Source: Roseomonas populi (GTDB taxonomy: Bacteria > Pseudomonadota > Alphaproteobacteria > Acetobacterales > Acetobacteraceae). From it: a stretch of 64,000 bases of DNA. Location: positions 186,001-250,000 of the forward strand of contig NZ_JANJOU010000008.1 of NCBI RefSeq assembly GCF_024594815.1. The letters run 5' to 3'. Shown here piece after piece: positions 41,176 to 60,862 of the stretch (position 1 is the first letter of the stretch; each line of letters begins with the position of its first letter). Both the position numbers and the translations under genes were made by a program. The notes under the pieces were generated by a model. The model was given only the letters and a program-made list of their open reading frames with translations. It did not search any database and was not told the DNA's origin.

Positions 41176-44154
41176 TCAGGCATCGAATTGCCTCTGCAGT
41201 CCGGCGATCGTCGCGTCCGAGAAGACGATGCTGCCCCGCGCGCTCCGCGCGACCGCCTCGGCCAGCAAAAGCCGCGCCTCGGCCCGTTCATCAGGCGGGA
41301 GAAGTTGCGCCAGGAGCGCAAGGCCCAATGGCCGGAGTAGCCCCGCCCCCATCTCCTCATAAGCCCCGAGGCCGCGGCGCATCTCCGCCTCGCCCGCCAT
41401 CCGGTCGCCCAGCCGCCCGCGCGCCCACCCGCCCAGGATGGCTCCCCAGGCCGACCAGTAAGCGAAGTCCTGGGCCGCCGCGATCGCCTGCAATTCCTCC
41501 GCAGCGGCCAGGGTGTCCTGCGGCCGTCCTGCCAGCTGCGCCAGGACGCAGCGGAAGGCCAGGGCGAAGCAGAGGCTGTGCGCATGGCCCAGCTCGCGCG
41601 CCGCCGCCACGGCCGCCCTGTCGATGGCGAAGGCCGCCTCGGCCTCGCCCTGGAACCACAGCACCCATCCCAGATGCGCCCGCGCCAGGACAGCCGGGTC
41701 TGAGCCGTAGTCGAAGCGGTGCGGCTCGTCCCGCGTGGGATCGTAGAGGGCCAGCACCCGTTCGAGATGCCAGCGCGCCTCCGCGTGGCGGCCGAGGTAG
41801 AGAAGGCCGAGCCCGAAGGGGCGATGCGCCTGGAGGAGCGCGGCCTCGTCCCGCTCGCCGTCCATCAGCGCCATGATCCGTTCCCCGATCGCGTGGCCCT
41901 CCGCCACGGCGCCGCGCACGAGGTGGAAGGTCTGCAGGCCGCGCAGCGTGCGCAGCAGCAGCGGCCGGTCATCAAGGCGAAGGGCGGCGGCATGGGCGGT
42001 GGCGAAGGCCTCGCCCACCTGCGGGGCGGCGTTGCCGCGCACCAGGGTCACCTGCGCGGCCAGCCCGATATGCAGGCGCGCCTCCAGCGCGTCCTGTCCC
42101 GTCGCCTCCAGGTTCGGCAGCTGGGCGATGGCGGCCTGGAAGTGTCCCGCGGCTTCCCCATGCGCCCCGGCGCGGCCGGCGCGGATGGCAGCCCGCTCAT
42201 AGGCCGCAATCGCCTCGGCCGCCGCGCCTCCGGCCGCCAGATGCCGCGCCAGCAGCTCCGGCCGGGCCGTGACTGTCTCCGCGAAGCGCTCCGGCAGCAG
42301 GCGGCCGAGCGCCAGGTGCAGGCTGGCGCGGCGGCTGCGCAGCAGGGTCTCGTAGGCCATGTCGCGCATCAGCTCGTGCCGGAAGGTGTAGCCGGTGGGG
42401 GCCTCGGGCGGGCCTTCCGGCTCCATGAGCCCGGCCTCCACCAGGCGGCGCAGGGGGCGCCGCGTGGCCGGCAGCCCCACCGTCTCGGCCAGCGCCGCCA
42501 GCATGTCCTCCCGGAAAGAGCGCCCGATCACGGCGGCGAGCTGGGCGATGGCCTTGGCCTCCGGCAGGGCGTCCAGCCGGGCGGTGAGGCCAGCGCGCAG
42601 GCTGAGCGGCAGCTCCGCCTCCGCCTGGGCGTCCCGCGCGGCCTCCACCAGGAAGATCGGCACGCCTCCGGCCCGCGCGATGATGCGGCGCAGGAGGGCG
42701 GGATCCGCCCCCTCCGGAGCTGCGGCGGCCGCGAGGTCGCGCGCCGCCGCCTCTCCCAGAGGTGCCAGGCGCAGCGTGAGGGGGGCTGGGCCGGGCAGGT
42801 TGCGACCCTCCTGGCGGCGGGTCAGCAGCAGCAGCCCGGGCGTGTCCGGGGCGGCAACGCTGTCGGCCAGAGCGCGCAGCACGGCCAAGGTGCTGTCATC
42901 GGCCCAGTGGATGTCCTCCGCGATGAAGAGGGGCACCGGGCCAGCGGCGGCGTGGAGCGCGGCGAGGAGAGCCGCCATGTTGCGCCGCCGCCGCCGGCGG
43001 CCGGCCGCCTCCATCTCGGCCACCTGGGCGGGCGAGGCGAGGTCCAGCAGCACGGCCAGGGGCGCCGCATGATCCGTGCCGGACAGGCCGTGGCGTGCCA
43101 GCCAGCCCACCAGGGCGGCGCGGGCCTCGGAGGGTGCCGCGCGGGGCGGGATCCCGGCTGCGGCGGCGATCCAGGCCAGGAGCGGGCGGAAGGCGCTGGC
43201 CTCCTCCTGGGCGTTGCAGGCGATCGCCACCGCCTCTTGGCCCGGGGCGCCGAGGCGCGCGCGGAACTCCTCGATCAGGCGACTCTTGCCGTGGCCCGGT
43301 TCGGCCTCGACGAGGACCGTGGTGCCGGCGCCCGCCCCGGCGTCCCGCCAGGCCGAGAAGAGGCTCCGCAGTTCGTCCTCCCGCCCAACCAGGGGCAGGG
43401 CGGCGGTGGGCGGCGCCATGGTGGAACCCGCGTGCAGCTCCGCCTCGACCCGGTGGGCGAGGACGGGCCGTGGCAGGCCAGGCAGTTCGATCTCCCCGAG
43501 GGAAACGAACCGGAACCGGCGCGGCGCGAGGCGACGGGTGGCCTCGCTCGCCAGGACCTCCCCCGGGGCGGCCGCGTGCTGCAACCGCGCGGCGATGGTG
43601 GTTGCCTCGCCGACCATGGCGCCAGGCTCGCCGGCAACCCCGTGGCCCAGGGTGGCAACGACGAGGATGCCGCTGTGCACCGCCACCCGTACCCGCAGGG
43701 CGATGCCCAGCCGCCCGCGCAGCGCCTCCACCTCCGAGACCAGGTCCAGCGCGGCCCGCAGGGCGCGGGCGGCATCGTCCTCCCGCGCGGAAGGGAAGCC
43801 GAAGCGCGCCAGCAGCCCGTCACCCTGGTGCTGGGCCAGGCTCCCGCCCTGCCGCAGCACCGCTGCCCCCGCCGCCTCCCGGTAGGCGAGCAGGACGGCG
43901 CGCAGATCCTCGGGGTCCAGGCGCGCGGTCAGGGCGCTGGATTCAACCAGATCGGCGAAGAGGACGGTCACGGGGCGGCGCTCCCCCGCCTCGGCGGCGA
44001 GCGCGTCGGGCGACGGCCGCAGCCTCTCCCCGCAGGCACCGCAGAACCGCATTCCGGGAGGGCTGACGAAGCCACATGCAGGGCAGGGAAGAACCGGGGT
44101 CAGGCGAATTTCTCCGGCAATGCGGCAAGACGACGTGATCGTGATCGAAATCAC
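41176..44154 (-). CDS. class III nucleotide cyclase fused to AAA ATPase and TPR-like repeats
   Basis: This 992-residue protein begins with a zinc ribbon (CPAC near 24, CGAC near 38). The class III adenylate/guanylate cyclase domain follows (about 55-235), with metal Asp in VLFADLVESS and the GDGLLARFGFP strand. Next comes an NTPase module with Walker A EPGHGKS near 298 and Walker B FIAEDIHWADD near 418. The remaining 500 residues are Ala/Leu-rich helical repeats resembling TPRs. Such proteins link a sensed protein or nucleotide signal to cAMP production. The GTG start at 44154 lacks a ribosome site; a CTG at 44103 has GGAGAA upstream and keeps the zinc ribbon. A Crp-type site overlaps the 44154 start. 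Confidence 0.9.
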   Translation of the reverse strand: MISITITSSCRIAGEIRLTPVLPCPACGFVSPPGMRFCGACGERLRPSPDALAAEAGERRPVTVLFADLVESSALTARLDPEDLRAVLLAYREAAGAAVLRQGGSLAQHQGDGLLARFGFPSAREDDAARALRAALDLVSEVEALRGRLGIALRVRVAVHSGILVVATLGHGVAGEPGAMVGEATTIAARLQHAAAPGEVLASEATRRLAPRRFRFVSLGEIELPGLPRPVLAHRVEAELHAGSTMAPPTAALPLVGREDELRSLFSAWRDAGAGAGTTVLVEAEPGHGKSRLIEEFRARLGAPGQEAVAIACNAQEEASAFRPLLAWIAAAAGIPPRAAPSEARAALVGWLARHGLSGTDHAAPLAVLLDLASPAQVAEMEAAGRRRRRRNMAALLAALHAAAGPVPLFIAEDIHWADDSTLAVLRALADSVAAPDTPGLLLLTRRQEGRNLPGPAPLTLRLAPLGEAAARDLAAAAAPEGADPALLRRIIARAGGVPIFLVEAARDAQAEAELPLSLRAGLTARLDALPEAKAIAQLAAVIGRSFREDMLAALAETVGLPATRRPLRRLVEAGLMEPEGPPEAPTGYTFRHELMRDMAYETLLRSRRASLHLALGRLLPERFAETVTARPELLARHLAAGGAAAEAIAAYERAAIRAGRAGAHGEAAGHFQAAIAQLPNLEATGQDALEARLHIGLAAQVTLVRGNAAPQVGEAFATAHAAALRLDDRPLLLRTLRGLQTFHLVRGAVAEGHAIGERIMALMDGERDEAALLQAHRPFGLGLLYLGRHAEARWHLERVLALYDPTRDEPHRFDYGSDPAVLARAHLGWVLWFQGEAEAAFAIDRAAVAAARELGHAHSLCFALAFRCVLAQLAGRPQDTLAAAEELQAIAAAQDFAYWSAWGAILGGWARGRLGDRMAGEAEMRRGLGAYEEMGAGLLRPLGLALLAQLLPPDERAEARLLLAEAVARSARGSIVFSDATIAGLQRQFDA

Positions 44155-44202: not shown

Positions 44203-46218
44203 ATGGCGCTGTCTTCCGGTGATTCGAACGGGGTTGGCGGATCATCCGCCCTCGATCCCGTGCTGCGCGCGGCCGCCTTCGCCCTGGCCCTGGCACCATC
44301 GCAGTCTGAATTTGGGGTGCTGGCCCGGATTCCCGATGGCGCGGCGATCCGCGCCCGGCCGGATGTCCGCTTCGGCTACGCCGTGCAGGAGGCGGACGGT
44401 ACGATCCTGCCGCCGGATGGCCACCCTCCGCGCGCGGAGGGCGCCGTTTTCGCCGCGCTGCGAATCGACCTCGCCTTGCAGCCCGGGATGGCGGCCGAGG
44501 ATCCCCTACCCGAGCTTCTTGCGCGGCTGGAGGATCTTGCCGGGGAGGGCTGGGACATGCGGGTCGAGCGCCTGCCCGGAAGCCCGTTCTCCGCCGCCAT
44601 GGAGGCGCTGCACGCCCGCCCCGACGACCTTCCGCCCCTGCCCGGCGGGGCGCCGGACGGCACGGGCGTCCTCGTCGGCGCCGTGGATTTCGGCTGCGCC
44701 TTCGCCCACCCGGCCTTTCGCCTGGGCACGGACGGGCTGGGCGGGACGCGGCTGCGCCTGCTCTGGGACCAGAACGGCCCGGCACCGCGCGGGGCCATGG
44801 TGCCGGGCCGCCGCTACGGGCCGGCCGAGCTGGACGCACTACTCTCGGGCGGCGATCCCTATCCCGAGGACGGCTATGTCCCCTGGGAGAACGGCTACGC
44901 GGCAGAGCCGGCCGGTCGCCCCGTGAGCGAGCTGGGCCGCCGCCTTTCGGTCCATGGCACGCACGTCCTCTCCGTGGCCGCGGGGAGACGGCCGCAGGAA
45001 GGGGCCTGGGCCAGGGGCACCCCGCCCGGAATCGCGCCCGGCGCGGCGCTGGGCTTCGTGCACCTGCGTCCCCGCGCCCTCGTCTCGGAGGGCGACGCGG
45101 TGGATGTGTTCGACGGCGTCTGCGCCCTCTTCGACCTCGCCGCGCGGGAGGGGATGCCGGCGGTGGTGAATCTCAGCGTCGGCGCCAACACGGGCGCGCA
45201 TGACGGCCAGGGGCTGATGGACCGCGCGCTGGACGCGCTGCTGAGGATGCCGAGCCGTGCCATCACGGTCGCGGCCGGGAACATGCGGGATGCCGGGCTG
45301 AACCGCTCCGGCAGCGTAGCGGCGGGGCGGCCCGCGACGCTGCGCTGGCGGTTCGAGGCGGGCGACCCGACCCCGAACATGCTGCGGATCTACGCGCCCA
45401 TGCAGGAGGGGATGCCGGCGCTGGACCTGGCGCTGGGCCGGCCGGGGGGAGCACCGGCGTCCGCCCTGAGGCCGGAGGATCTGCGCGGGCAGGCCGTGCT
45501 GGTGCTGAAGGACGCCGCCGGGGAAGACCCGATCGGCACCGCCGCCTCCACCACGCGCCCGCCCACGACCGAAGAGCCGGTCCAGCACTTCGAGCTGCGC
45601 CTCCGGCCCTCCGGGCGGGAGGAGGTCTGGCAGGTGACCCTGAGCCTGGGGCCGGAGGCGGTCTCGAACCACGCATTCTTCGATGCCTGGATCGAGCGAG
45701 ACGACCTGCGGCGCCACAGCGGCTCGCGCTTCGAGCCGCCGGACCCCGGGGAGGAGACGCTGAACGCGAATGAGGGGCCGGGCTGCTCTCTCGGCTCTCT
45801 GGCCTGCGCGGAGGGGCCGATCTGCGTGGCGGCCGTCGCCCTTCCGGATGGCGGCCCGGCGCCGTTCAGCTCCATGGGCGGCACGCGGATCGGGGGAGAG
45901 AAGCCGGACGTGGCGGCGCCGGGCCTGGCCGTGCCCGGCGCCTCCGGCCTCGGCGGGCTGCGCGACGGGGCGGGGCAGACCTTCGCCGCGGGCATCCGCA
46001 TGGACGGAACGAGCGCGGCCGCGCCCCAGGTCGCGGGCGTCATCGCGCTGATGCTCCAGGCAAGGCCGCGCCTGACGGCGGAACGAATTCGCGCCATCCT
46101 GCGCGCGACCACGCGGGAGAGGCAGGCAGATCCGGGCGCGGCGTGGCAGCGGGACATCGGCGCCGGCCGGGTGGATGCCGCCGCCGCCATGGCCATGACC
46201 CTGGAGGAGCCGGAATGA
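44203..46218 (+). CDS. cytoplasmic subtilisin-like (S8) serine protease
   Basis: ATG 44203 directly follows a strong GGAGGAGGA site and gives 671 residues; the very long frame upstream is a shadow. The catalytic triad is intact: Asp in GAVDFGCAFAHP (near 164), His in HGTHVLSVAAG (near 252), Ser in DGTSAAAPQVAG (near 606), with oxyanion Asn in VAAGNMRD. Between Asn and Ser lies an insertion of about 200 residues that reads like a jelly-roll domain, as in clostridial Csp-type proteases. About 150 N-terminal residues precede the protease domain. There is no signal peptide. It overlaps the radical SAM gene by four bases, so it may process the product of that machinery. Confidence 0.9.
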   Translation: MALSSGDSNGVGGSSALDPVLRAAAFALALAPSQSEFGVLARIPDGAAIRARPDVRFGYAVQEADGTILPPDGHPPRAEGAVFAALRIDLALQPGMAAEDPLPELLARLEDLAGEGWDMRVERLPGSPFSAAMEALHARPDDLPPLPGGAPDGTGVLVGAVDFGCAFAHPAFRLGTDGLGGTRLRLLWDQNGPAPRGAMVPGRRYGPAELDALLSGGDPYPEDGYVPWENGYAAEPAGRPVSELGRRLSVHGTHVLSVAAGRRPQEGAWARGTPPGIAPGAALGFVHLRPRALVSEGDAVDVFDGVCALFDLAAREGMPAVVNLSVGANTGAHDGQGLMDRALDALLRMPSRAITVAAGNMRDAGLNRSGSVAAGRPATLRWRFEAGDPTPNMLRIYAPMQEGMPALDLALGRPGGAPASALRPEDLRGQAVLVLKDAAGEDPIGTAASTTRPPTTEEPVQHFELRLRPSGREEVWQVTLSLGPEAVSNHAFFDAWIERDDLRRHSGSRFEPPDPGEETLNANEGPGCSLGSLACAEGPICVAAVALPDGGPAPFSSMGGTRIGGEKPDVAAPGLAVPGASGLGGLRDGAGQTFAAGIRMDGTSAAAPQVAGVIALMLQARPRLTAERIRAILRATTRERQADPGAAWQRDIGAGRVDAAAAMAMTLEEPE

Positions 46219-47309
46219 GCGCGACTGGCACGAGCCCGGCAGCACGCCTGATCGGGGGCTCCCCGCCGCTGCACCGCCCGATGAAGGTGACCATCGGCTA
46301 CACGCAGTCCTGCAACCTGGATTGCCGCGTCTGCTACGCCGATTGCACGCGCGCGCCCTCCCCGCGGGAGCTGCCGGCGACGACTTGGATCCGCCTGCTG
46401 GACGAGTTCTTCGAGGCCGGAGTGATCTCCGTGATGATCGAGGGCGGGGAGCCCTTGCACCGGCCGGACGTGCTGGAGGTGATTGCCCATGCCGCGCCGC
46501 GAGCGATGACGCGGCTGCGCACGAACGCGACGCTGGTGGACGACGCGATGGCCGGCCGCTTGAAGGCCATCGGCCTCGGCGACGCGATGGTGGACCTTCT
46601 GGGCGCGACGCCGGAGACGCATGACGCGCTGACCGGCGTGCCCGGCAGTCATGCCCGCAGCATCGCCGGCATCCGCGCCCTGCGGCGTGCCGGGCTGCCG
46701 GTGACAGTGCTGGTCATCATGAACCGGGGGAACCATCGGGAACTGCAGCCGCTGCTGGAACTGGCGAAGGCGGAAGGCGCGGAGGCGGTGGGCGTGCTGC
46801 GCCCCTACCCGCTGGGTCGGATGCGCCGGGATTGGGGGACGCTCTCGCTCTCGCTTCAGGAGATGATGGCGGCGATCGCTGCGCTGCGTCCGCCGGAGGG
46901 GATTCGGCTCATGCAGTCCTGGCACCCGAACGACGCGAATTGCTGCTGGCAGATGGCAGCGGTGAATGCCTACGGGCACTCCATCGGCTGCATGTACCTG
47001 CGCGAGTACGTGGACTACGGCGATGTGACGACGATGCCCTTCCTGGCGACCTGGGACGATCCACTCTACCGCCACCTGCGCGCTGGAAAGGTGGAGGCGA
47101 GCTGCGGCGGCTGCGCCTCCACCCAGCACACGCATGGCGGCTGCCGCTCCACCGCTTATGCCTTCCACGGGCGCTGGGACGCGCCGGACCCCTTCGATTC
47201 CGGGCTGAACGGCGGCGTGGACCTGCGGGTCCTGCCGGCACCAGGGCCGGAGCCGGAACTGGGACCTGGGCTGAGACCTGGACTGGGGGCGAACCACGAT
47301 GCGCCATGA
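46215..47309 (+). CDS. radical SAM/SPASM-domain enzyme
   Basis: The product is 364 residues from ATG 46215 in the protease stop. The radical SAM cluster motif CNLDCRVC uses C33, C37 and C40 (CX3CX2C), followed by GGEP for SAM binding. The C-terminus has a SPASM opening, C-X9-G-X4-C (CWQMAAVNAYGHSIGC), and then CGGC and a further Cys nine residues later, so auxiliary Fe-S clusters are likely. SPASM enzymes modify ribosomal peptides or proteins, as PqqE does. The tail is Pro/Gly-rich. It overlaps the PqqD-like gene by 11 bases, which strongly suggests a maturase plus recognition-protein pair. Confidence 0.9.
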   Translation: MSATGTSPAARLIGGSPPLHRPMKVTIGYTQSCNLDCRVCYADCTRAPSPRELPATTWIRLLDEFFEAGVISVMIEGGEPLHRPDVLEVIAHAAPRAMTRLRTNATLVDDAMAGRLKAIGLGDAMVDLLGATPETHDALTGVPGSHARSIAGIRALRRAGLPVTVLVIMNRGNHRELQPLLELAKAEGAEAVGVLRPYPLGRMRRDWGTLSLSLQEMMAAIAALRPPEGIRLMQSWHPNDANCCWQMAAVNAYGHSIGCMYLREYVDYGDVTTMPFLATWDDPLYRHLRAGKVEASCGGCASTQHTHGGCRSTAYAFHGRWDAPDPFDSGLNGGVDLRVLPAPGPEPELGPGLRPGLGANHDAP

Positions 47310-47598
47310 GCGCTCGCCGGGGCTCCGGCTCCGTCCCCTGCCCGAGCTGGGAGCCTGCCTCGCCTACACACCGGCCGCACCGCGGCTGCACCAGCTGAAC
47401 GCGACGGCCTGGCTGATCCTGGAGCTCGCCGATGGGCGGGACGACGCGGCACTAGCTGAGGCTTTCGCCGCGCGCACGGCGAAGGCGCTCTCAGCGACGG
47501 CGGCGAGACGCACGCTGGAGGATGGGCTCGCCGGGCTGCGCGCCTGCGGGTTGCTGCGAGTGGCCGGATTGGACAGGGAAGAAAGGGACCCCGCATGA
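47299..47598 (+). CDS. PqqD-like peptide recognition protein (RRE fold)
   Basis: At 99 residues, the central segment APRLHQLNATAWLILELADG followed by a helix-rich half matches the PqqD family. That family is a small winged-helix fold which binds RiPP leader peptides and presents them to a radical SAM partner. The order radical SAM then PqqD, with overlapping genes, is that expected of a two-part maturase. The target peptide is not evident. The family call rests on pattern only. Confidence 0.8.
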   Translation: MRHERSPGLRLRPLPELGACLAYTPAAPRLHQLNATAWLILELADGRDDAALAEAFAARTAKALSATAARRTLEDGLAGLRACGLLRVAGLDREERDPA

Positions 47599-48104
47599 CC
47601 GAATCACCGAACCCGGCCGATGCCGCCGAGGCGCTGCTAAGGGCGCAAGGCCGCGTGGCGCCCGCCAGCGCCGTGCCGCTCGTCTCCGTCGTGCGGAGCG
47701 GCGAGCAGTTCCTGATCCTGCCAGCGGCAGGCAGCGAGGAGGATCTCGGCCCGCTCGGCCGCCTCGTGCTGGAATGGGGGTACGAGGTCCCGCGCGCGCA
47801 GCACGTCGAGTTCCAGGCCTTTCTGCGCGACAACAACGGCCTGCTCAGCACGTCCTCCGTGCCGGGCCTGCGCTATCTCGGCACCTACACGGTCTTCCAG
47901 CAGAGCGAGCGGAGCCTCGGCAGCTTCCGCACGCTCTGGGATTTTCAGCGTCTGTCGCAGATGGAGGAGATGAGCGCGCGCGTGGCGGATGCCGGGGATG
48001 AGTGGGGCCAGGCGGTCAAGGCGCTGATGGCCTTCCGGGATTCGGATTACACGGCCGGCCGCAGCCAGGTCATCCTTCAGCTGGCGGCCGCAACGGTCCT
48101 CTGA
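47595..48104 (+). CDS. unknown 169-residue protein of the radical SAM operon
   Basis: I do not recognise a family. It starts in the PqqD-like stop (ATGA). The protein contains no cysteine and mixes helical stretches with an aromatic central part (GLRYLGTYTVFQQSERSLGS, then a Trp/Phe segment). It reads as a compact globular protein rather than a short leader-core peptide. As last gene of a protease, radical SAM and PqqD-like operon it could be the modified substrate, an immunity or partner protein, or an adaptor. There is no signal peptide or membrane segment. Confidence 0.75.
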   Translation: MTESPNPADAAEALLRAQGRVAPASAVPLVSVVRSGEQFLILPAAGSEEDLGPLGRLVLEWGYEVPRAQHVEFQAFLRDNNGLLSTSSVPGLRYLGTYTVFQQSERSLGSFRTLWDFQRLSQMEEMSARVADAGDEWGQAVKALMAFRDSDYTAGRSQVILQLAAATVL

Positions 48105-48152: not shown

Positions 48153-48848
48153 TCATCCGCCCTGGCCGGAGGGTGTGCCGTAGCCGGCCTCCACCTCAGC
48201 CTCCAGCAGCGCGGGTCGCGGCAGCACAAGGCCGCCCCTGGTCACCTGCATGACACCGTCGCGCCCCATGGCGCCGAGCGTGCGGGAGATCACCTCGCGC
48301 CGCGTGCCGATGCGCGAGGCGAGCTCGTGGTGCGGCGGCGGCGGCGAAACGATGCGCCCGCCGCCTTCCCGCGGGCGGGAGAGGCGCAGCAGCAGCGCCG
48401 CCAGCCGCGCGCGCACGGGCAGCACCGCGAGTTCCAGCAGGCGCTGGTCCTTCTCCCGCACCAGGGCGGTCAGGCTCCGCATGAGGTGATGCGAGGCCTC
48501 GGGCGTCGACAGGACGAAGGCCATGAAGGGCGCCGCCGCAACGGTGCATAGGCGGGCCCGCGTCAGCGCGACGATACTGACGGAGCGGTACCCACCATCG
48601 ATCGCCGCGATCTCGCCGAAGAGGCTGCCCGGACGCAGTTCGTTCAGGATCATCTCATGGCCGCCGCTGCTGCGCGAGACCACGCGCAGCTCGCCCTCGG
48701 AGACGAAGCTGACCTCCTGCGTCAGGTCGCCCGCCTCCAGCACCGCCTGCCCTGCCGAGAAGCCCCGCCAGCGTGCCACGGCCGCCAGGGGCTCCAGCGC
48801 CGTCCGGTCGAAGGGCCGAAAAAAGGGCAGGTGGCTCAGATCATCCAT
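48153..48848 (-). CDS. Crp/Fnr-family transcriptional regulator
   Basis: ATG 48848 gives 231 residues; ATG 48908 is an alternative. The cyclic-nucleotide domain keeps GSLFGEIAAIDGGYRSVSI, with the Glu and Arg-Ser that hold cAMP in E. coli Crp. The winged helix reads HELASRIGTRREVISRTLGAM, preserving the Arg, Glu and Arg positions that contact GTGA in Crp. There are no Fnr-type N-terminal cysteines. It should therefore be a cAMP-responsive Crp rather than an oxygen sensor. It converges on the radical SAM operon and diverges from an MFS gene. The nearby cyclase could supply its ligand. Confidence 0.9.
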   Translation of the reverse strand: MDDLSHLPFFRPFDRTALEPLAAVARWRGFSAGQAVLEAGDLTQEVSFVSEGELRVVSRSSGGHEMILNELRPGSLFGEIAAIDGGYRSVSIVALTRARLCTVAAAPFMAFVLSTPEASHHLMRSLTALVREKDQRLLELAVLPVRARLAALLLRLSRPREGGGRIVSPPPPHHELASRIGTRREVISRTLGAMGRDGVMQVTRGGLVLPRPALLEAEVEAGYGTPSGQGG

Positions 48849-49051
48849 GGGGCATGGCTCATCCAGCCACAGTGCCGCCGCTTCAGCGCGCCGTAAATGC
48901 ATGACCATCTTCGGGATGTCACCCCTGGCACGGAGGTCTCGCGACCGGGACCCAGCTTCCCGCCCTTGCGGCGTGGCGCGATGTGACTTTCGGCACCGCG
49001 CGTCGCGGGGTGGAGAGGTCAGCTTCGTGGCGTTCCGAAAAGGGGGCCACG

Positions 49052-50674
49052 ATGACGTTGATTGCTCGCCCGTGCCTGCCAGAACAGCCCCTGCCGACGG
49101 TTCCCGCCAGAAGGCCGGCACCGGTCGTGCCCCGGCCGCCACTGAGATTTCGCGGCTGGGCGGTGGTCGGGGGCTCCTTCGTCGTGCAGGCGCTCTGCTT
49201 CGGTGCGATCTATTCCGTTCCTGCCTTCGCCGCGTCTCTGCGGACCAGTTTCGGCGTCTCGGACCTCTCGGTCAGCCTGATCTATGCCGTCAGCGGCGCC
49301 ATGGCCTTCGCCATCGGCGGAGTCAGCGGTCCGCTCGCGGATCGCTTCGGCGCGCGCTGGCCGATCGCGCTGGGGATGGTCGTCATGGCCTCCGGGTTCC
49401 TCCTCGCGGCGGTGGCACGCAACTTCTCCCAGGTGCTGCTCTGCTACGGCTTGCTCGTGGGGACCGGCGCAGGGATGGCCTACGTTCCGGCGGTCGCGGC
49501 TGTGCAGCGCTGGTTCGTGGCATGGCGCGGCCTGGCCTCGGGCATCGCCACCTCGGGGGTGGGAGTCGGCACCGCGCTGGTTCCGGTCTCGGCCTCGCTC
49601 CTGGCCCTCTGCGGGGATTGGCGGGTGGCCTTTCTGATCACGGCGGTCTTTGTCGCCGTCACCGGACTGCTGGCGGCGCAATGCCTGGCCCGCTCGCCCG
49701 AGGCTTGCGGCCTGGAGCCGGATGGAACGGCAGAACCCGCACGCCGGCACCATGCGCCGGTGCCGGAAGGCATCGGCATCGGCCAGGCACTGAGGGAGAG
49801 ACAGTACTACTTGTTGCTGGCGGGTAGCCTCCTCCTCTCCGTCGCTGTCGCGCTCCCCTACGCCGACGTGGTGGCGACGGCGCGCGGAGCCGGCCTGGCC
49901 GCCTCGGATGCGCTCTGGCTCCTGAGCCTGATCGGGATCGGCTCGATCCTCGGCCGCCTTGCCCTCGGCACCGTGGCGGACCGGTTCGGGCGCGACCGGA
50001 CCTTGCTGGCCTGCTGCATCGGCGTCGCGGCGACGATGGCGTGGTGGGCGGAAACCCGGAGCGCCATCGGGTTCATCCTCTTCGCGCTCGGCTTCGGCCT
50101 GTGCCAGGGCGGGTTCGTCGCGCTGCTGCCGAGCGTGGTGGTGGACCTGTACGGGCGGCGCTCGGCAGGCGGCCTCATCGGCATGCTCTTCACCGGGCGG
50201 GCTCTTTCCGTCCTCCTGGGGGCTCCTGGCATGGCCGCCCTTGCTGCCGCGGCCGGCCATGGGATCGCCCTCTGGACTGCGTGCGGCCTGGCTCTACTCG
50301 GCACCCTCCTGCTGTCGCGCGCCTTGTGGCCGCGCCGCAGGCCGCGTGGCGCCGGAAACGCCAGGAAGCCCGGCCTCGTTTCCCCGGCGTCATCCTTGCC
50401 GCCCATCCTCCCGCACCATCCAGGCCAGGCGCCCATGATGATCCGTCGATCCGGAACCGATAATCCGAGCGCTGATCGTCGGCCAGCGCTTCGGGACCTG
50501 CTCTGGGTAATGGCTGACCTCCCGACCCGAACGCTGCCAAGCGGCAGAGAGACACTTTCGGCCCAGGTGAAAATCGGTGCGCCCTCTTCCGCAAACACGC
50601 TGTGCCTCACGATGGTAAGCGCGTGCTCGATGGAAGATCACAGTTGCGACGCTCCGCTTCACACTGCTTCGTGA
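49052..50674 (+). CDS. MFS transporter with atypical C-terminal tail
   Basis: ATG 49052 gives 540 residues. Twelve membrane helices can be traced from WAVVGGSFVVQALCFGAIYS to LWTACGLALLGTLLLS (about 35-430), with the MFS loop motif GPLADRFGARW between helices 2 and 3. It resembles the oxalate/formate antiporter and monocarboxylate group. After the last helix come about 110 residues of Ser/Pro/Arg-rich sequence that is AT-richer and unlike the family. The normal stop may have been lost by a frameshift near 50340. It diverges from the Crp gene; a TGTGA half-site lies at 48982-48986. Confidence 0.88.
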   Translation: MTLIARPCLPEQPLPTVPARRPAPVVPRPPLRFRGWAVVGGSFVVQALCFGAIYSVPAFAASLRTSFGVSDLSVSLIYAVSGAMAFAIGGVSGPLADRFGARWPIALGMVVMASGFLLAAVARNFSQVLLCYGLLVGTGAGMAYVPAVAAVQRWFVAWRGLASGIATSGVGVGTALVPVSASLLALCGDWRVAFLITAVFVAVTGLLAAQCLARSPEACGLEPDGTAEPARRHHAPVPEGIGIGQALRERQYYLLLAGSLLLSVAVALPYADVVATARGAGLAASDALWLLSLIGIGSILGRLALGTVADRFGRDRTLLACCIGVAATMAWWAETRSAIGFILFALGFGLCQGGFVALLPSVVVDLYGRRSAGGLIGMLFTGRALSVLLGAPGMAALAAAAGHGIALWTACGLALLGTLLLSRALWPRRRPRGAGNARKPGLVSPASSLPPILPHHPGQAPMMIRRSGTDNPSADRRPALRDLLWVMADLPTRTLPSGRETLSAQVKIGAPSSANTLCLTMVSACSMEDHSCDAPLHTAS

Positions 50675-50909: not shown

Positions 50910-52490
50910 ATGCCGGATGCACTCACCTACCCTGGCGTTTATGTCCAGGAATTGCCGAGCGGCGTCCGCACCATCATCGGCGTCGGCACATCCAGCACCG
51001 CCTTCGTGGACAGCTTCTCGCGCGGTCCGCTCGACACCGCTGTCCAGGTGACGAGCTGGGCTGCCTTCGAGCGTGTGTTCGGCGGCCTACGGGCCGACAG
51101 CGAGGGCAGCTACGCGGTCCAGCAGTTCTTCCTTAACGGCGGAAGCACGGCCTGGATCGTTCGCGTTGCCGGCGTCCCCGAACCCCCGGACGCTGCGACT
51201 CCTCCCGCCGCCCCGGCTGCGCTCTCGATGGAGCCGGCGGGCAAGTCGCTGATGGTGAAGGCCGTTGATCCGGGCAAGTGGGGCAACCGTCTTCGGGTTG
51301 TCGCCACCGCCGTTGCCGGCTCGCCCAAGCTGTTCAACCTGATGGTCCAGGAAGTGGTCTCGACGGCCGGCAACCTCTCCGTGCTGGAGAGCGAGACCTT
51401 CCTCAACCTCTCGATGGTGCCGGGCGAGGCAGGCTTCGCGCCGGACGTGGTGAATACCGGGTCCCGCCTCGTGCGGCTGGAGGTACAGCCGCCCGGCCAG
51501 CTTCCCACGCTTGCCCCCGTGGATGCGCGCGGCGGCGTGGCGGACGCGGCGTGGAAGCCCCTGGCCGGCGGCACGGAGGGCGCGCTGCCGGACGCCAAGG
51601 CGCTGACCGGCAGCCCGGACGCCGGGACAGGCCTCTACGCACTGGAGCGCATCAGCCCCGCGATCTTCAACCTGCTCTGCCTGCCTCGGGCCTCCGCGCT
51701 GGACTCCACGGGCTTCGGCGCGGTGATCAGCAAGGCTCAGGCCTTCTGCCGGACCCACCGCGCCTTCCTGCTGGTGGACCCGCCGGCCAAGGGCGCCGAG
51801 GACGAGGCGAAGATGGCGGCCTGGGTGGAGTCCGCCAACATCCGGGACGCCAACGCGGCCGTGTACTTCCCCCGTCTCTCCATCCCCGATCCGCTGAACG
51901 GCTTCCGTCTCCGCACCGTCGGGCCGAGCGGCACGGTCGCCGGCATCTACGCGCGCACCGACGCGGCGCGGGGCGTGTGGAAGGCACCCGCTGGCGTGGA
52001 CGCGACGCTGGCCGGCGCGACACCGGTGCTGAGGCTGACCGACCCGGAGAACGGCAACCTCAACCCGCGCGGCGTCAACGCGCTGCGCACCTTCCCCATC
52101 TACGGCCCGGTGGTCTGGGGCGCGCGCACGCTGGTCGGCGCGGACCAGATGGCCAGCCAATGGAAATACGTCCCCGTCCGCCGCACCGCTCTCTTCATCG
52201 AGGAGACCCTGTTCCAGGGCCTGCGGTGGGCCGTTTTCGAGCCCAATGACGAGCCGCTCTGGACCCAGATCCGGATGAGCGTGGACGACTTCATGCACGG
52301 CCTGTTCCGGCAGGGCGCCTTCCAGGGCGCCACCCCGCGCGAGGCCTACCTCGTGCAGTGCGACGCCACGACCACGACGCAGGGCGACATCGACCGCGGC
52401 ATCGTGAACCTCATCGTCGGCTTCGCCCCGCTCAAGCCCGCGGAGTTCGTGGTGCTGAAGCTGCAGCAGATCGCCGGCCAGACGAGCTGA
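50910..52490 (+). CDS. contractile tail sheath protein (eCIS)
   Basis: This 526-residue phage-tail sheath-like protein forms the contractile outer cylinder. The N-terminus LTYPGVYVQELPSGVRTIIGVGTSSTAF is the family signature in which the extended strand links neighbouring subunits. The C-terminal domain holds NPRGVNALRTFPIYGPVVWGARTL and the FLQ-like VLKLQQIAGQTS end. A GGAGG site lies just before the ATG. It is the first gene of a coupled run of structural genes. Only one sheath gene is present in this window, against several in the Photorhabdus PVC. Confidence 0.95.
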   Translation: MPDALTYPGVYVQELPSGVRTIIGVGTSSTAFVDSFSRGPLDTAVQVTSWAAFERVFGGLRADSEGSYAVQQFFLNGGSTAWIVRVAGVPEPPDAATPPAAPAALSMEPAGKSLMVKAVDPGKWGNRLRVVATAVAGSPKLFNLMVQEVVSTAGNLSVLESETFLNLSMVPGEAGFAPDVVNTGSRLVRLEVQPPGQLPTLAPVDARGGVADAAWKPLAGGTEGALPDAKALTGSPDAGTGLYALERISPAIFNLLCLPRASALDSTGFGAVISKAQAFCRTHRAFLLVDPPAKGAEDEAKMAAWVESANIRDANAAVYFPRLSIPDPLNGFRLRTVGPSGTVAGIYARTDAARGVWKAPAGVDATLAGATPVLRLTDPENGNLNPRGVNALRTFPIYGPVVWGARTLVGADQMASQWKYVPVRRTALFIEETLFQGLRWAVFEPNDEPLWTQIRMSVDDFMHGLFRQGAFQGATPREAYLVQCDATTTTQGDIDRGIVNLIVGFAPLKPAEFVVLKLQQIAGQTS

Positions 52491-52529
52491 CGCCCGCCCC
52501 GCCGCCCGTCCCCGCGCAGGAAACCCACC

Positions 52530-53054
52530 ATGCCCCCCGTGCTCGCCACCACGACACCCGCCGACCCGTACAAGAACTTCAAGTTCCTGGTGCTCTGGGA
52601 CCAGCGTACCGTCGCGGCCGTCAGCAAGGTGACGGGGCTGAAGCGAGTCACCGAGGTGGTCCGCCACCGCAGCGGCGGCGACCCTTCCAGCAGCCGCAAG
52701 TCGCCGGGGCGGACGGAGTACGAGCCGGTGACGCTGGAGCGCGGCGTCACCTTCGACACCGCCTTCGACCAGTGGGCCAGCGCGGTCTGGGCCTTCCAGG
52801 CCGGACTGGGTCGTGAATCCTCGCCGGCCAACTTCCGCAAGACCGTGACGATCGAGCTGTACAACGACGCGGGCCAGGCAGTTCAGCGCTATTTCCTGTA
52901 CCGCTGCTGGGTCTCGGAATACACGCCGTTGCCGGAGCTGGACGCCAACGCGAACGGGATCGCGATCCAATCCATCAAGCTGGAGAACGAGGGCTGGAAG
53001 CGCGATGAGGCGCTGACCCCGCCGGTCGAGCCCAGCTTCTCCTTCCAGCCCTGA
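52530..53054 (+). CDS. contractile tail inner tube protein
   Basis: This 174-residue protein is of the phage-tail tube family (gp19/Hcp-like fold). The typical pattern is DPYKNFKFLVLWDQRTVAAVSKVTGLKR at the start, an RRTEYEPVTLERGVTFD-like strand (GRTEYEPVTLERGVTFD), and LENEGWKRDEALTPP near the end. Hexameric rings stack into the rigid inner tube. It follows the sheath gene by 40 bases and is the only tube gene in this window. Confidence 0.94.
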   Translation: MPPVLATTTPADPYKNFKFLVLWDQRTVAAVSKVTGLKRVTEVVRHRSGGDPSSSRKSPGRTEYEPVTLERGVTFDTAFDQWASAVWAFQAGLGRESSPANFRKTVTIELYNDAGQAVQRYFLYRCWVSEYTPLPELDANANGIAIQSIKLENEGWKRDEALTPPVEPSFSFQP

Positions 53055-53055
53055 C

Positions 53056-53757
53056 ATGCCCGGGGTGCCGGAAGGCCGGGCCCTGCTGGAGCTCTGCGAG
53101 GCCGCGCGCGGGCTCTCCCCCGCACGGACCGCCCTGCTCCTGCTCACGGCCCTCGATCCGTCGCTCGATCCGGCGGAAGCGATGGCGCTCGACCTCGGCG
53201 CGCGGGACGCCCGGCTGCTGGAAGCCCGCGCGCGCTGCTTCGGCGATGGGTTCGAGGCCGCGGCGGACTGCCCGGCCTGCGGCACCCGGCTGGACGTCGC
53301 GCTCAGCGCCCGGGCGCTGCGCCAGCCCGAGCCACCTCACCTTCCCCCGGAGACCGCGAACGGCCCGGACGACCTGGCCTTCCGCTTGCCGACGAGCGAG
53401 GACCTCCTGGCCGTCGAGGCGGAACGGGGCCCGGCCGCCATGAAGCGCGCGCTGCTGGAGCGCTGCCTGCTGCATGGGGAGGCCTCGCCGGCCGCGGAGG
53501 CCCTGGTCTCCGCGGGGCTCGAGGCGGCGATGCCGCAGAGCGACGTGTCGGTCGCCCTCGCCTGCCCGGATTGCGGCCATGATTGGGAACTCCCCTTCGA
53601 CGTGACCCTCTTCCTCCTGGACGAGCTGGAGGGACGGGCCGGGCGCCTGCTGGCCGATGTCCACCTCCTGGCCAGCGCCTATCACTGGGAGGAGGCGACG
53701 ATCCTCGACATGCCCGCGTCCCGGCGCGGTCGCTACGTCTCGATGGTGTCGGCGTGA
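53056..53757 (+). CDS. T4-baseplate-like protein with zinc ribbon
   Basis: This 233-residue protein starts one base after the tube stop. Two CXXC pairs, C72/C75 (CPAC) and C170/C173 (CPDC), should bind one zinc. The C-terminal run LLASAYHWEEATILDMPASRRGRYVSM resembles the conserved tail of T4 gp26/gp51-like proteins found in eCIS loci. It is probably a baseplate assembly or chaperone component. Assignment is by pattern and position. Confidence 0.75.
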   Translation: MPGVPEGRALLELCEAARGLSPARTALLLLTALDPSLDPAEAMALDLGARDARLLEARARCFGDGFEAAADCPACGTRLDVALSARALRQPEPPHLPPETANGPDDLAFRLPTSEDLLAVEAERGPAAMKRALLERCLLHGEASPAAEALVSAGLEAAMPQSDVSVALACPDCGHDWELPFDVTLFLLDELEGRAGRLLADVHLLASAYHWEEATILDMPASRRGRYVSMVSA

Positions 53758-54521
53758 GCAACTACCTGGACCGGCTTGTGGCCCGCGCGCTGCGCGAGAC
53801 GCCGGCCCTGCAGCCGCGCGCGCCACTGCTGTTCGGCCCCGCCCCGGCCGAGGCAACGCTGGGGGAGCCCCCTTCGCGGGCCGCGCCGGAGCGGCCGCAC
53901 CCGGCACCGCCGCGCGCAACCGGCCGCCCGCGCGCGGAGGGGCCCGGCCGGCATGGAGGGGCCGCCGCGCCCACGGCACCCGCCACGGCGCCCCTGCAGG
54001 AGCAGCGGCCCGGCGTTCCGATCGCCCGGGGTTCCGCACCGCCAGGGCGGTCCGAGCCAGAGGTGGAGCCGGAAGGAAGACGCGCCACGGAGGGCTCCCG
54101 CACGGCTGGGAAGGCGGCCCCGCTCCAGTCCGCCCCGATGGACGCCCCGATGGCCGCTCCGGCCGTAGCCGCACTGCCGCTGGCCGTCTCCGCCGCCCCG
54201 CCCGCGCCAGCGGCCCCCGGCTCCGTCGCAGTGCCGCTTCTGCCCCGCCCGGCACCGGACACCCCCGCCCCGGATCGGCCGCCGGTCCGGACAGCGCCCC
54301 TTGAGGCACTCCCCTCCGGCCCGCGCGCGGCAGGGCAGGCGGAGCAGCCCCAGGCCAAGCCCAGCCCCATGCCCGCTGCCCCCGCTCCGGTGGTGATCGA
54401 GATCGGCGCCATCGAGTTCCGGGCACCGCCCCCCGCCGCCCCGGCCACACTCCCCGGCCCTCGCCGGCCCGCCCTGTCGCTCGGCGACTATCTGGCGCGC
54501 CGTGACAGGCGGCCGGGATGA
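53754..54521 (+). CDS. Pro/Ala-rich linker protein of the eCIS operon
   Basis: GTG 53754 overlaps the previous stop and gives 255 residues. The first 27 residues (NYLDRLVARALRETPALQPR) and last 45 (VVIEIGAIEFRAPP, then RPALSLGDYLARRD) look structured and conserved. The 180 residues between are Pro, Ala, Gly and Arg and surely disordered. Proteins with such ends occur in eCIS loci without known function. It may tether baseplate or cap parts. It is a real gene because the reading frame is coupled to both neighbours and the ends are not low-complexity. Confidence 0.75.
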   Translation: MSNYLDRLVARALRETPALQPRAPLLFGPAPAEATLGEPPSRAAPERPHPAPPRATGRPRAEGPGRHGGAAAPTAPATAPLQEQRPGVPIARGSAPPGRSEPEVEPEGRRATEGSRTAGKAAPLQSAPMDAPMAAPAVAALPLAVSAAPPAPAAPGSVAVPLLPRPAPDTPAPDRPPVRTAPLEALPSGPRAAGQAEQPQAKPSPMPAAPAPVVIEIGAIEFRAPPPAAPATLPGPRRPALSLGDYLARRDRRPG

Positions 54522-55747
54522 GCACGTTCCAGGCCATTGCCACTGTCACCGCGACGCTGCGGCAACGCCTGCTCGAGGTCGCGCAGGCCGACGTGCCCGG
54601 CTCAGCGGTGACGGCGCTGCGCCCGGCCGAGCCGGGCGGCGGCGGCATTCCCTCCCTCGGGGTGAACCTGTTCCTCTTCGCCGCCCACGTGAACCCGGCT
54701 CACCGCAACCGCGAGCTGCCGCTCCGCCGGGCCGGCGGGGAGGCCGTGAGCCGCCCGATGGTGCCGCTGGACCTCGATTACCTCATCAGCTTCTACGGCG
54801 AGCAGAACGGCGGCGCCCAGCTGCTGCTGGGCAGCGTGATGCGCGACCTGCACGCCGCCCCCGTGCTGACGAACGCGATGATCACCGCGGCGGAGGGCGC
54901 GTCCGGCCTGGCCTCCGGCCTCGCCGACCAGGCGGAGCGGGTGCGGCTGACACCGCTGCCCCTGCCGCTGGAGGAGATGGCCAAGCTCTGGTCCGTGTTC
55001 TTCCAGACGAGCTACGCGCTCTCCGTCGCCTACCGTGCGGGGCCGGTGCTGCTGGAGGCCGAACTGCCCACCGTCGCCGCCCCGCCCGTGACGCTGCCCC
55101 AGCTCACCACTGCCCCGCTCCTCCGGCCCGCCGTGACGACTGTGGAGAACGCCGCGGATCCGGCGGCGCCGATCGCGCCGGGCAGCCAGATCGCCGTGGT
55201 AGGGGAGCGCCTGGCCGGACCGGCCGTACGGGCGGAGGTGGGTGGAGTCGAGGTCGCGCCCGATGCCGTCGCGGAGCGGCGCCTCCTGCTCACTCTTCCG
55301 CCCGGCCTTCCGGCGGGCCCGGTGGGGTTGCGCGTGCGCCAGGACGTGCTGGTGGGCGACCCGCCCTCACCCCGGCGCGGGGAGGCGTCGCGCCTCGTGC
55401 CCTTCGTGCTGCACCCCGCCGTCGCCCGGCCCGGCGGCGCCTTCGCGGTGGCCGTCACGGAGGTCAGCGGCACGGGCGCCGCGCCGCGCAACGCCACCGT
55501 CACGGTCGGGCTGGTGCCCCCGCTCGCTCCGGGCCAGCGCGCGTCCCTGGAGCTGCTGGAGGCCTCCGGTGCCGTGCGCCACGTCTTCCCTGCGCCGCTT
55601 CGCGCGGAGGCGGCCGGCAGCGTCGCCTTCGCCGTGCGCGGCGTGGTGGCAGGCACCTACGGGTTGCGGGTGCGGGTAGAGGGGGCGGAGACCCCGCTGG
55701 GCGAGGACGCGGCGGGCGAGCCCGAGCCGCGCCTGGTGCTGCCGTGA
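54518..55747 (+). CDS. DUF4255 (Pvc16-like) cap/terminator protein
   Basis: This 409-residue protein carries the DUF4255 domain at about 1-190: IATVTATLRQRLLEVAQ, VNLFLFAAHVNPAHRN, LDLDYLISFYGE and LLLGSVMRDLHAAPVL. Its homologue in PVC and AFP particles caps the distal end of tube and sheath. The second half (about 230-400) is Pro/Val-rich with beta-sandwich-like strands. It overlaps the ATPase gene by four bases (GTGA). Confidence 0.9.
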   Translation: MSTFQAIATVTATLRQRLLEVAQADVPGSAVTALRPAEPGGGGIPSLGVNLFLFAAHVNPAHRNRELPLRRAGGEAVSRPMVPLDLDYLISFYGEQNGGAQLLLGSVMRDLHAAPVLTNAMITAAEGASGLASGLADQAERVRLTPLPLPLEEMAKLWSVFFQTSYALSVAYRAGPVLLEAELPTVAAPPVTLPQLTTAPLLRPAVTTVENAADPAAPIAPGSQIAVVGERLAGPAVRAEVGGVEVAPDAVAERRLLLTLPPGLPAGPVGLRVRQDVLVGDPPSPRRGEASRLVPFVLHPAVARPGGAFAVAVTEVSGTGAAPRNATVTVGLVPPLAPGQRASLELLEASGAVRHVFPAPLRAEAAGSVAFAVRGVVAGTYGLRVRVEGAETPLGEDAAGEPEPRLVLP

Positions 55748-57648
55748 ACGCGCCTTTCGGCCCCGCCCCGGCCATCGGGCCCGCGGACGATCCGGATGCC
55801 GGGCCGGACTGGGCTGAGGAGAACCAGCTTGCCCTGATGGCGGCCGTGCGCCGTGTCGGCCAGCGCCTGGCGGAGCACGCGGCGGGCCGCCCCCCTGGAG
55901 AGCCCGGGCTGACGGAGGCGGACACGCCGGGTACTGCGCTGGAAGCCGTCCGCACCGTCTTCGGCCTCAGCGCCTTCGAACGGGACGTGCTCCTGATGAG
56001 CATCGCGCCGGAGCTGGACGGCGGCGCTCACCCCGCCCCGAGCTTCGGTCTCGCCCTGGCGGCCCTGCCGGGCCCGCACTGGACGGCCCTGCAGCCCTCC
56101 TCGCCGCTGCGCTGGTGGCGGCTGGTGGAGCCCGGCCCGGGCCCGCTGGTGGAGGCGGTGCTGCGCCCGGACGAGTGGATACTCCACGCCCTGGCCGGTG
56201 CGGGCTACCGGGACGAGCGGGTGGCCGCGCGCGTTCAGGACGTCGCCGCGCCGGAGGAACTGGTGCCGAGCCAGGCTGCCGTCGCGGCCGCCCTGGCCGA
56301 GCTCCTGGCCTCCTCAGGCGCCACCCGCGATGCCTCGCCGGTCGGTGCCGTCCAGCTCTGTGGCTCCCTGGCGGACGGTGCGGCCGAGGTCGCCGCCGCT
56401 GCAGCGGCCCGGCTCGGCTGCACCCTGGCGACGGCGCATGCCGCGGATCTCGACCCCGCCCTGCTGCGGCTCTGGCAGCGGGAGGCGCTGCTCGGCCGCC
56501 AAGCGCTGCTGATCGACTGCGAGGGCGTCGCCGGCCCCGCGGCGCTCCGGGCGCTCGGCGCGCTGGTGCGGGAGTGCTGCACGCCGCTGCTGCTCCTGGC
56601 CGAGGCCCCCCTCTCCCTCCCTGGTATCTCGGTGGCGCGGATCGACCTCGCCCGCCCCGGGCCGGAGGAGCGGGCAGTGCTGCTGCGCGCCGCGCTGGGC
56701 CTGGACGCGGAGGAGCCGGCCCCGGCGGTGGACGAGGCGGCCGTCCATTTCGACCTCGGCCCTGCCTCCCTGCGAGCCGCCGCGGCCGCGGCGGGAACCC
56801 CCGACCGACTCTGGGCCGCCTGCCGGGACGCGGGCCGGACCGCCTTCCCCCACGGCACGCGGCTGCGTCCCGCCGCGGACTGGAACGCGCTGGTGCTGCC
56901 GGCGGCGCAGGAAGCAGCCCTGCGCGAGCTGGCGGCGGAGGTGCGCCACCGCGGGTTGGTGCACGGCGCCTGGGGCTTCCGGGCCGCCGGCCGGGGCGGC
57001 GGCGTGACGGCGCTGCTGCACGGCCCCAGCGGCACGGGCAAGACCCTGGCGGCCGAGGTGCTGGCCGGCGCCCTAGGGCTGGACCTCTGGTCCGTGGACC
57101 TCAGCGCGCTGGTGAGCAAGTACATCGGCGAAACCGAGAAGAACCTGCGCGCCGCCTTCGAGGCGGCCGAGGCGAGCGGCGCGGTACTGCTGTTCGACGA
57201 GGCCGACGCCCTGTTCGGCCGCCGCAGCGAGGTGAAGGACAGCCACGACCGCTACGCGAACCAGCAGGCCAGCTACCTGCTGCAGAGGATGGAATCCTTC
57301 CGCGGCCTAGCCGTGCTGACCACCAACTTCCGCGAGGCGATCGACAACGCCTTCCTGCGCCGCCTTCGCTTCGTCATCGGCTTCCCCCATCCGGGCCCGG
57401 CGGAGCGGGAGCGGCTGTGGCGCGGCGCCTTCCCGCCCGCGGCGCCGGTCGGTGCGCTGGACTTCGCCCGGCTCGCCCAGGCCAATCTCGCTGGCGGGCA
57501 CATCCGCAACATCGCCCTCGCGGCCGCCTTCCTCGCGGCCGAGGACGGCACCCCCATCGGCATGGCCCACCTGCTGCGCGCGGCCCGGCGGGAATGCGCG
57601 AAGCTGGAACGGCCGCTGACCCCGGCGGAGGTGGCGGGATGGCTGTAG
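55744..57648 (+). CDS. eCIS AAA+ ATPase (Pvc15-like)
   Basis: GTG 55744 gives 634 residues. The N-terminal 420 residues form a degenerate ATPase-like and helical region. The C-terminal AAA+ domain has Walker A HGPSGTGKTLAAEV (about 425-438), Walker B VLLFDEADALFGRR and sensor TTNFREAIDNAFLRRLRF. Every eCIS encodes such an ATPase; in PVC it is needed for effector loading rather than contraction. It overlaps DUF4255 and the following small gene. The longer frame upstream is a shadow. Confidence 0.92.
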   Translation: MNAPFGPAPAIGPADDPDAGPDWAEENQLALMAAVRRVGQRLAEHAAGRPPGEPGLTEADTPGTALEAVRTVFGLSAFERDVLLMSIAPELDGGAHPAPSFGLALAALPGPHWTALQPSSPLRWWRLVEPGPGPLVEAVLRPDEWILHALAGAGYRDERVAARVQDVAAPEELVPSQAAVAAALAELLASSGATRDASPVGAVQLCGSLADGAAEVAAAAAARLGCTLATAHAADLDPALLRLWQREALLGRQALLIDCEGVAGPAALRALGALVRECCTPLLLLAEAPLSLPGISVARIDLARPGPEERAVLLRAALGLDAEEPAPAVDEAAVHFDLGPASLRAAAAAAGTPDRLWAACRDAGRTAFPHGTRLRPAADWNALVLPAAQEAALRELAAEVRHRGLVHGAWGFRAAGRGGGVTALLHGPSGTGKTLAAEVLAGALGLDLWSVDLSALVSKYIGETEKNLRAAFEAAEASGAVLLFDEADALFGRRSEVKDSHDRYANQQASYLLQRMESFRGLAVLTTNFREAIDNAFLRRLRFVIGFPHPGPAERERLWRGAFPPAAPVGALDFARLAQANLAGGHIRNIALAAAFLAAEDGTPIGMAHLLRAARRECAKLERPLTPAEVAGWL

Positions 57649-57953
57649 CACCGATGCCCGGCAGTCCCGGTGGCGGTCTCGCGGATCCCGCGCCCGGGAA
57701 TGCCCCCGGTGCCGCCCCGCCGGTGCGGATCCGCATCGGGCGGCTGGTGCTGCAGGGCGTTCCGCACGGCGACGCCGCCGCGATGGAGGCAGCACTGCGC
57801 GGGGAGCTCGCGCGCCTCGCCGCATCCGCCGTTCCAGCACGGGGCCCTGCGCCCGTTGCACCGGCCGGCGGCACCCTGCGCGCGGCCACCCCGGCCGGGC
57901 GCGGGCGCGAGGCGGCGGCGCGCATCCTGGCCGCGCTGCGGAGGCCGGCATGA
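57639..57953 (+). CDS. small eCIS-operon protein, 104 residues
   Basis: ATG 57639 overlaps the ATPase end. The protein has a central VRIRIGRLVLQGVPHGDAA segment followed by a helix and an Arg/Ala-rich tail. The IGRLVLQG run resembles IGAIEFRAPP at the end of the Pro-rich linker protein, so the two may share a short beta motif. No family is recognised. The genes before and after overlap it by ten and four bases, which supports that it is real. Confidence 0.65.
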   Translation: MAVAPMPGSPGGGLADPAPGNAPGAAPPVRIRIGRLVLQGVPHGDAAAMEAALRGELARLAASAVPARGPAPVAPAGGTLRAATPAGRGREAAARILAALRRPA

Positions 57954-58603: not shown

Positions 58604-58610
58604 GGCCCGC

Positions 58611-58898: not shown

Positions 58899-58902
58899 GG
58901 CG

Positions 58903-60859: not shown

Positions 60860-60862
60860 GCC

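Follow-up and report, generated by a model that had tools for sequence, protein, structure and literature searches.

What do four overlapping genes of Roseomonas populi act upon, when three of them encode a protease, a radical S-adenosylmethionine (SAM) enzyme with a SPASM domain and a PqqD-like protein, and the fourth a protein of 169 residues (U169)? They lie in the window, the 64,000-nucleotide stretch analysed here (contig NZ_JANJOU010000008.1, positions 186,001 to 250,000), which belongs to a genome of 5.87 Mb (G000). A sequence-only reading had described the four genes as coupled, with the logic of a ribosomally synthesised and post-translationally modified peptide (RiPP) system and a cysteine-free U169 as the last product; the genes are indeed real, intact and overlapping, and the U169 sequence contains no cysteine. 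We consider it probable that the operon is a RiPP-like maturation cassette in which U169 is the precursor, composed of a leader, a core and a folded follower. This order of leader, core or cores and folded follower is suggested as the best reading of the gene content, gene overlap, conservation, a shared motif, its copy number, and the predicted disorder and fold. The operon and the parts of U169 are arranged as follows:

44203..46218, + strand: Csp-like S8 protease with a beta-rich insertion, proposed release protease
46215..47309, + strand: radical SAM/SPASM enzyme, proposed core-modifying enzyme
47299..47598, + strand: PqqD-like recognition protein, above the PF05402 cut-off
47595..48104, + strand: U169, 169 residues, proposed precursor with leader helix, core and folded follower
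47613..47645, + strand: U169 residues 7-17, helix predicted in the AlphaFold2 model, proposed leader
47676..47714, + strand: U169 residues 28-40, predicted to be disordered and without variation in six orthologues, proposed core (VRS at residues 33-35)
47757..48101, + strand: U169 residues 55-169, dimeric alpha/beta-barrel-like domain, proposed folded follower

Is this gene combination kept elsewhere? Contigs from one genome per species were scanned with the radical SAM alignment, which yielded 29 loci, 24 of these having 48-95% identity. Whole-genome searches contributed further loci, as did one plasmid (Microvirga ossetica), and same-genome duplicates were removed by hand. The resulting 36 loci, all chosen by their radical SAM gene, span Alphaproteobacteria, Betaproteobacteria and Actinomycetes; the controls were the other five loci of the scan, whose radical SAM genes are unrelated (L041-L045; 23-30% identity along part of the protein). 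Genes were counted by six-frame profile searches, in which 31 U proteins (U169 and its counterparts) were seeds of the U profile and five actinomycete peptides were not. Both a PqqD profile match and a U protein or peptide were found in 36/36 loci, and PqqD, U, S8 protease, cyclase and Crp each in 0/5 controls. A protease is present in 26 of the 36, being of the S8 type in 22 and a metalloprotease with an HExxH motif in four (in L023 with a Peptidase_M4_C match of 35.4 bits, cut-off 24.4; in L036 assigned by the motif, with no Pfam match). The S8 gene lies upstream in 18 loci and downstream of U in four (L074-L077), where it is also longer, and hence the protease seems to change while the radical SAM enzyme, PqqD and U stay, a variation in protease type that supports the precursor reading. 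The sequence-only reading had made its proposal depend on the co-occurrence of the four genes in other genomes; the check in 36 loci did not refute it, and the claim stands for PqqD and U but only partly for the protease. We also observed that the downstream S8 gene of L076 (8683-11972) is split into two overlapping reading frames and may be disrupted or a sequencing artefact, and that the PqqD-like and U reading frames on the Microvirga plasmid (L084, 10992-11963 of NZ_CP016618.1) are missing from its (incomplete) gene table.

A shared motif lies in the N-terminal segment of the U proteins. U169 is predicted to consist of a helix (residues 7-17), a disordered but conserved segment (28-40) and the barrel-like domain, and the longest stretch without variation among six U169 orthologues is residues 28-40, exactly where the model confidence (predicted local distance difference test, pLDDT) falls below 50. 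The pattern [VIL]R[ST] occurs in the N-terminal segment of 36/36 U proteins and peptides, at residues 26-36 in all except L031 (at residue 19 with the start codon selected), whereas in 2000 shuffles of the proteins it fell at residues 26-36 in 0.72 of the 36 on average and in no more than five. Homologues in this positional test are not independent; of the representatives below 50% identity, 18/19 carry the pattern at the same residues. Among 21 motif copies from the 19 representatives, Pro is located at -9 in 20 and V, I or L at -4 in 18; V/I/L at position 0, Arg at +1 and Ser/Thr at +2 are 21/21 by construction, because the copies were selected by that pattern, a circularity from which the positional test is free. 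Further [VIL]R[ST] occurrences are seen elsewhere in some U proteins, for instance at residue 15 in L008 and at 10 and 44 in L029.

A second line of evidence comes from the forms in which the motif is carried. In the window and the other Proteobacteria examined, a single N-terminal copy precedes the barrel, but in Hyphomicrobiaceae three (L026, L030) or five copies (L034), spaced 28-30 residues apart, are followed by the barrel. In L032, L033, L035, L038 (Streptomyces) and L040 (Rhodococcus), PqqD is followed by a gene for a peptide of 59-64 residues that has a single motif and lacks the barrel. When 7165 open reading frames (ORFs) were ranked with a profile built from the 31 fused N-termini, these five peptides took places 32-36, with E-values of 6.1e-7 to 0.001; the next other ORF had an E-value of 0.3, and the best reversed decoy one of 0.01. 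Moreover, three of three Streptomycetaceae loci found after the motif had been fixed hold a motif peptide of 53-58 residues (E = 6e-10, 1.7e-6 and 1.9e-6, each within its own locus). Judged by these profile matches, the stand-alone and fused forms are related. The short precursor that the sequence-only reading missed is largely accounted for: a small ORF of the kind it had advised looking for is present as the short peptide of the five actinomycete loci. Its statement that no short precursor is visible and that a folded protein is the only candidate substrate was right in pointing to U169, but the candidate part is the disordered N-terminal segment and not the folded one. As a separate observation, the Hyphomicrobiaceae genome with the three-core L026 also holds a second, divergent single-core cassette (L085; G641 C13).

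The actinomycete peptides have neighbours of a tailoring type, a setting that supports taking the small peptide for a precursor. An alpha-ketoglutarate-dependent (aKG) HExxH peptide beta-hydroxylase is encoded upstream in 3/3 tested actinomycete loci (48.4 bits in L032, 50.8 in L107 and 40.8 in L108; cut-off 40), and none was seen among the predicted genes beside L040. A further gene of L032 encodes a large radical SAM protein; among named families it matches a RiPP C-methyltransferase family best (114.7 of 281.85 bits), and its B12-binding match is below the Pfam cut-off.

Does the folded domain instead hold the function? U could be an enzyme with a protein-bound cofactor, as in the Qhp system: the radical SAM enzyme would modify the motif, the leader would be trimmed by the protease, and the residue so altered would remain on the protein and serve the barrel. 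The barrel-like fold of residues 55-169 (NIPSNAP/ABM-like), predicted for the monomer and without a Pfam match, resembles barrels that include monooxygenases and isomerases, and Tyr94, Gly96 and Thr97 of the folded part are invariant in 28 sequences. The action of an S8 protease and a radical SAM enzyme on one protein reportedly has its precedent in Qhp. QhpD itself appears in an excerpt of PMC8326336. However, such an enzyme does not account for stand-alone peptides without a barrel or for arrays of three or five copies, and we regard this alternative as unlikely. Database searches assign U169 to no named family: neither Pfam nor NCBIfam gives it a match at E<=0.1 (best PHROGs match E = 0.028), the U profile reaches at best E = 0.69 against PDB sequences, and its relatives in L034 and L032 reach no curated cut-off.

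Under the precursor reading, the N-terminal helix would be the leader, residues 24-42 or so the core, and the C-terminal barrel-like domain the follower. The PqqD-like protein would bind the leader helix, the radical SAM/SPASM enzyme would alter the core, either on the fixed Arg-Ser/Thr pair or next to it, and the S8 protease would cut the modified core from the leader, the follower or both, while the divergent cyclase and the Crp-like protein may tune expression. As to the chemistry, we would guess at a radical reaction on Arg, or at bond formation with the hydroxyl, in preference to thioether or aromatic cross-linking, because Arg and Ser/Thr are the only fixed side chains beyond the aliphatic ones, with no Cys and no fixed aromatic residue. 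Neither U169 nor any of the 21 motif copies listed has a core cysteine for thioethers, as in sactipeptides and ranthipeptides, and with regard to triceptides no motif position is a fixed aromatic, the closest being +6 (W, F or Y in 10/21).

Some features of a RiPP system are found here at the sequence level, namely a helix with a motif, stand-alone forms of 53-64 residues and arrays beside a modifying enzyme, together with a PqqD-type recognition element in the window and in all 36 loci, but not in L109. RiPP-like logic and a separate system, as the sequence-only reading had it, hold up. In borosins and BURP-domain peptides the core is part of the same chain as a folded domain, which is the modifying part; the cassette is alike in fusing core and folded domain but its modifier, the radical SAM enzyme, is a separate protein. 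The pathways of pyrroloquinoline quinone (PQQ; PqqA/D/E) and mycofactocin (MftA/B/C) place a discrete PqqD-type protein beside a PqqE-type radical SAM/SPASM enzyme, as the cassette does, but the cassette has another precursor motif, in most cases joined to a folded domain. The alignment of the radical SAM profile with PqqE (6c8v) extends from position 7 to 329 of 335, but the window enzyme does not attain the cut-off for PqqE (98.4 of 381.35 bits) or for mycofactocin (104.6 of 265 bits) and reaches no curated cut-off among its 25 best rows. Its last SPASM cysteine is replaced by Asp (DPFD), as also in L021, L022 and L016, and 13/17 aligned relatives have DPFC or DPYC there.

In the maturation of quinohemoprotein amine dehydrogenase (QHNDH), a radical SAM enzyme (QhpD) and an S8 protease (QhpE) are said to mature a protein. 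The cassette shares this pair of enzymes, but thioether chemistry needs the Cys that U169 and the motif copies lack, and the window S8 protein scores 12.8 of the 165 bits required for a QhpE-type protease. By structure it has an overall subtilase fold with a beta-rich insertion as in Csp germination proteases, although it is below the named CspBA model (36.3 of 1250 bits). A cytoplasmic S8 protease that removes a leader is known from the lanthipeptide protease ElxP (described in an excerpt of PMC10885120), a precedent with other modifying enzymes; the window protease, for its part, is Csp-like in structure. For the modification, an excerpt of PMC8326336 describes the RRR peptides, in which the C-delta of Arg is bonded to Tyr, and the TQQ peptides, in which Thr forms an ether to the C-alpha of Gln; an Arg or a hydroxyl residue is available for a bond in the cassette motif as well, but no Tyr or Gln is fixed in it. 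Repeated cores are seen in TvgA/TvgB, where the radical SAM enzyme modifies TVGG repeats and the excerpted text of PMC9062424 describes no folded follower. We found no such system as the cassette in the open-licence literature searched, and an earlier mention in subscription papers is possible.

Several observations weigh against the precursor reading. The motif might serve for recognition and not as the core; a C-terminal run of U169 (154-164) is nearly as conserved, and U169 itself is the exception among the motif copies in having Pro at -10 instead of -9. The L040 peptide (E = 0.001) is just tenfold better than the best reversed decoy, and the reverse profile built from the five peptides is weak, finding fused proteins at 1e-6 (L034), 4.4e-4, 0.0055 and 0.054 and mixing them with other proteins from E = 0.1. 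No protease was found in 10/36 loci (the five actinomycete loci, L084, L087, L088, L025 and L029); in L025 and L029 the contig ends at the radical SAM gene. Three of the four metalloproteases (L036, L027 and L031) are assigned by the HExxH motif alone, and this loose motif also matched 1/5 controls and one extra ORF in L011. In L109 (oriented 32-2640), finally, one of the three later Streptomycetaceae loci, a motif peptide lies upstream of a divergent radical SAM gene, beside a protein weakly like tetrapyrrole methyltransferases, and no PqqD match was found; this is possibly a different branch.

If the motif were a docking or recognition tag for PqqD and the radical SAM enzyme, the true substrate would be some other molecule, or else a peptide that is unlinked. 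Three points would suit a tag: conservation and disorder are compatible with a recognition segment, every form carries the motif close to its N-terminus, and L109 combines the motif with the lack of a PqqD match. It is nevertheless the whole unit that repeats up to five times and not the N-terminal helix, and the operon has no space for a further ORF; we judge a tag quite improbable. Unlinked substrates were searched just in 14 genomes with the L034 array, nine of which gave a match at E<=1 and three a strong one (3.8e-81 to 5.7e-17). Core arrays elsewhere in the genomes were rejected, all three strong matches being at the cassette's own place and the rest at E = 0.07 or worse.

What do the flanking genes contribute? 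Two are encoded on the opposite strand:

41176..44154, - strand: divergent nucleotide cyclase/AAA protein, proposed regulator
48153..49142, - strand: Crp/Fnr-type regulator (longest ORF), proposed regulator

A cyclase was found in 26/36 loci and Crp in 12/36, three of the latter at 5-6.5 kb from the radical SAM gene. The cyclase, protease and radical SAM enzyme might form a signalling or conflict module, acting as its sensor and its effectors, while U would be a target under regulation and not a source of peptide. These frequencies of cyclase/AAA and Crp would agree with it, as would some weak PADLOC matches and the conflict operons in which cyclases, proteases and SPASM enzymes meet (described in an excerpt of PMC7159879). 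However, the PADLOC matches are generic, and the Hyphomicrobiaceae loci L026, L030 and L034 as well as the actinomycete loci have no cyclase yet keep the radical SAM enzyme, PqqD and U, so that such a module seems very improbable. Defence was also rejected as a function, PADLOC giving just subtilase, viperin-like and PycC-like matches; the window cyclase has weak PycC matches too. A thiazole/oxazole-modified microcin (TOMM) system was discarded, as this cyclase scores 377.7 bits against TIGR03903 (TOMM kinase/cyclase; cut-off 705.75). The L076 cyclase begins with a core-like string, which was dismissed as a start-codon artefact or chance because it is absent from the other 11 cyclase rows listed.

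Downstream in the window, 50910-63756 hold a contractile injection cluster with sheath, T4 gp19-like tube, Pvc16_N, spike OB domain and baseplate J proteins. Used as queries, these gave no match at E<=1e-4 in five relatives of 20 kb, and none in 26 loci measuring 3.9-21 kb when the limit was E<=1e-3 (the two sets have genomes in common; L069-L089 and L107-L109 were outside), the sole match being a weak baseplate-J one in L012, the next stretch of G000 itself. The cluster was hence rejected as a conserved partner of the cassette, not being a neighbour in the relatives tested.

The radical SAM family is rare across the lineages scanned. At E<=1e-70, counting the genome at the centre of each group, it is present in 13/249 genomes of the family of G000, 3/103 of the family of a Hyphomicrobiaceae genome, 4/76 of the order of a Reyranella genome and 2/250 of the order of a Variovorax genome; for the Streptomyces genome the counts are 4/249 in its family and 1/394 in its class, and for the Rhodococcus genome 1/151 in its family. 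A narrower first profile (E<=1e-45) found 2/385 genomes in the class of G000, G000 included, and the U169 gene is present in 5/15 genomes of the genus (again with G000). The tree of the radical SAM enzymes is unrooted, with outgroup branches of 6.5 or more. We give an even chance to the broader proposal that the cassettes constitute a new RiPP class of Pseudomonadota and Actinomycetota, with a radically modified, Cys-free core that has the fixed Arg-Ser/Thr pair, three precursor forms (stand-alone, one-core barrel and multi-core barrel), interchangeable proteases and, in many Proteobacteria, cyclase and Crp regulators.

For operons that apparently lack a precursor, these findings suggest searching the disordered head of a folded neighbour, since mining restricted to small ORFs would overlook fused precursors. 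The occurrence of the same core in fused and free form makes the role of the folded follower testable. The radical SAM chemistry may be unfamiliar, and the fixed Arg-Ser/Thr pair, the free peptide and the array of five copies offer substrates on which it can be tested directly.

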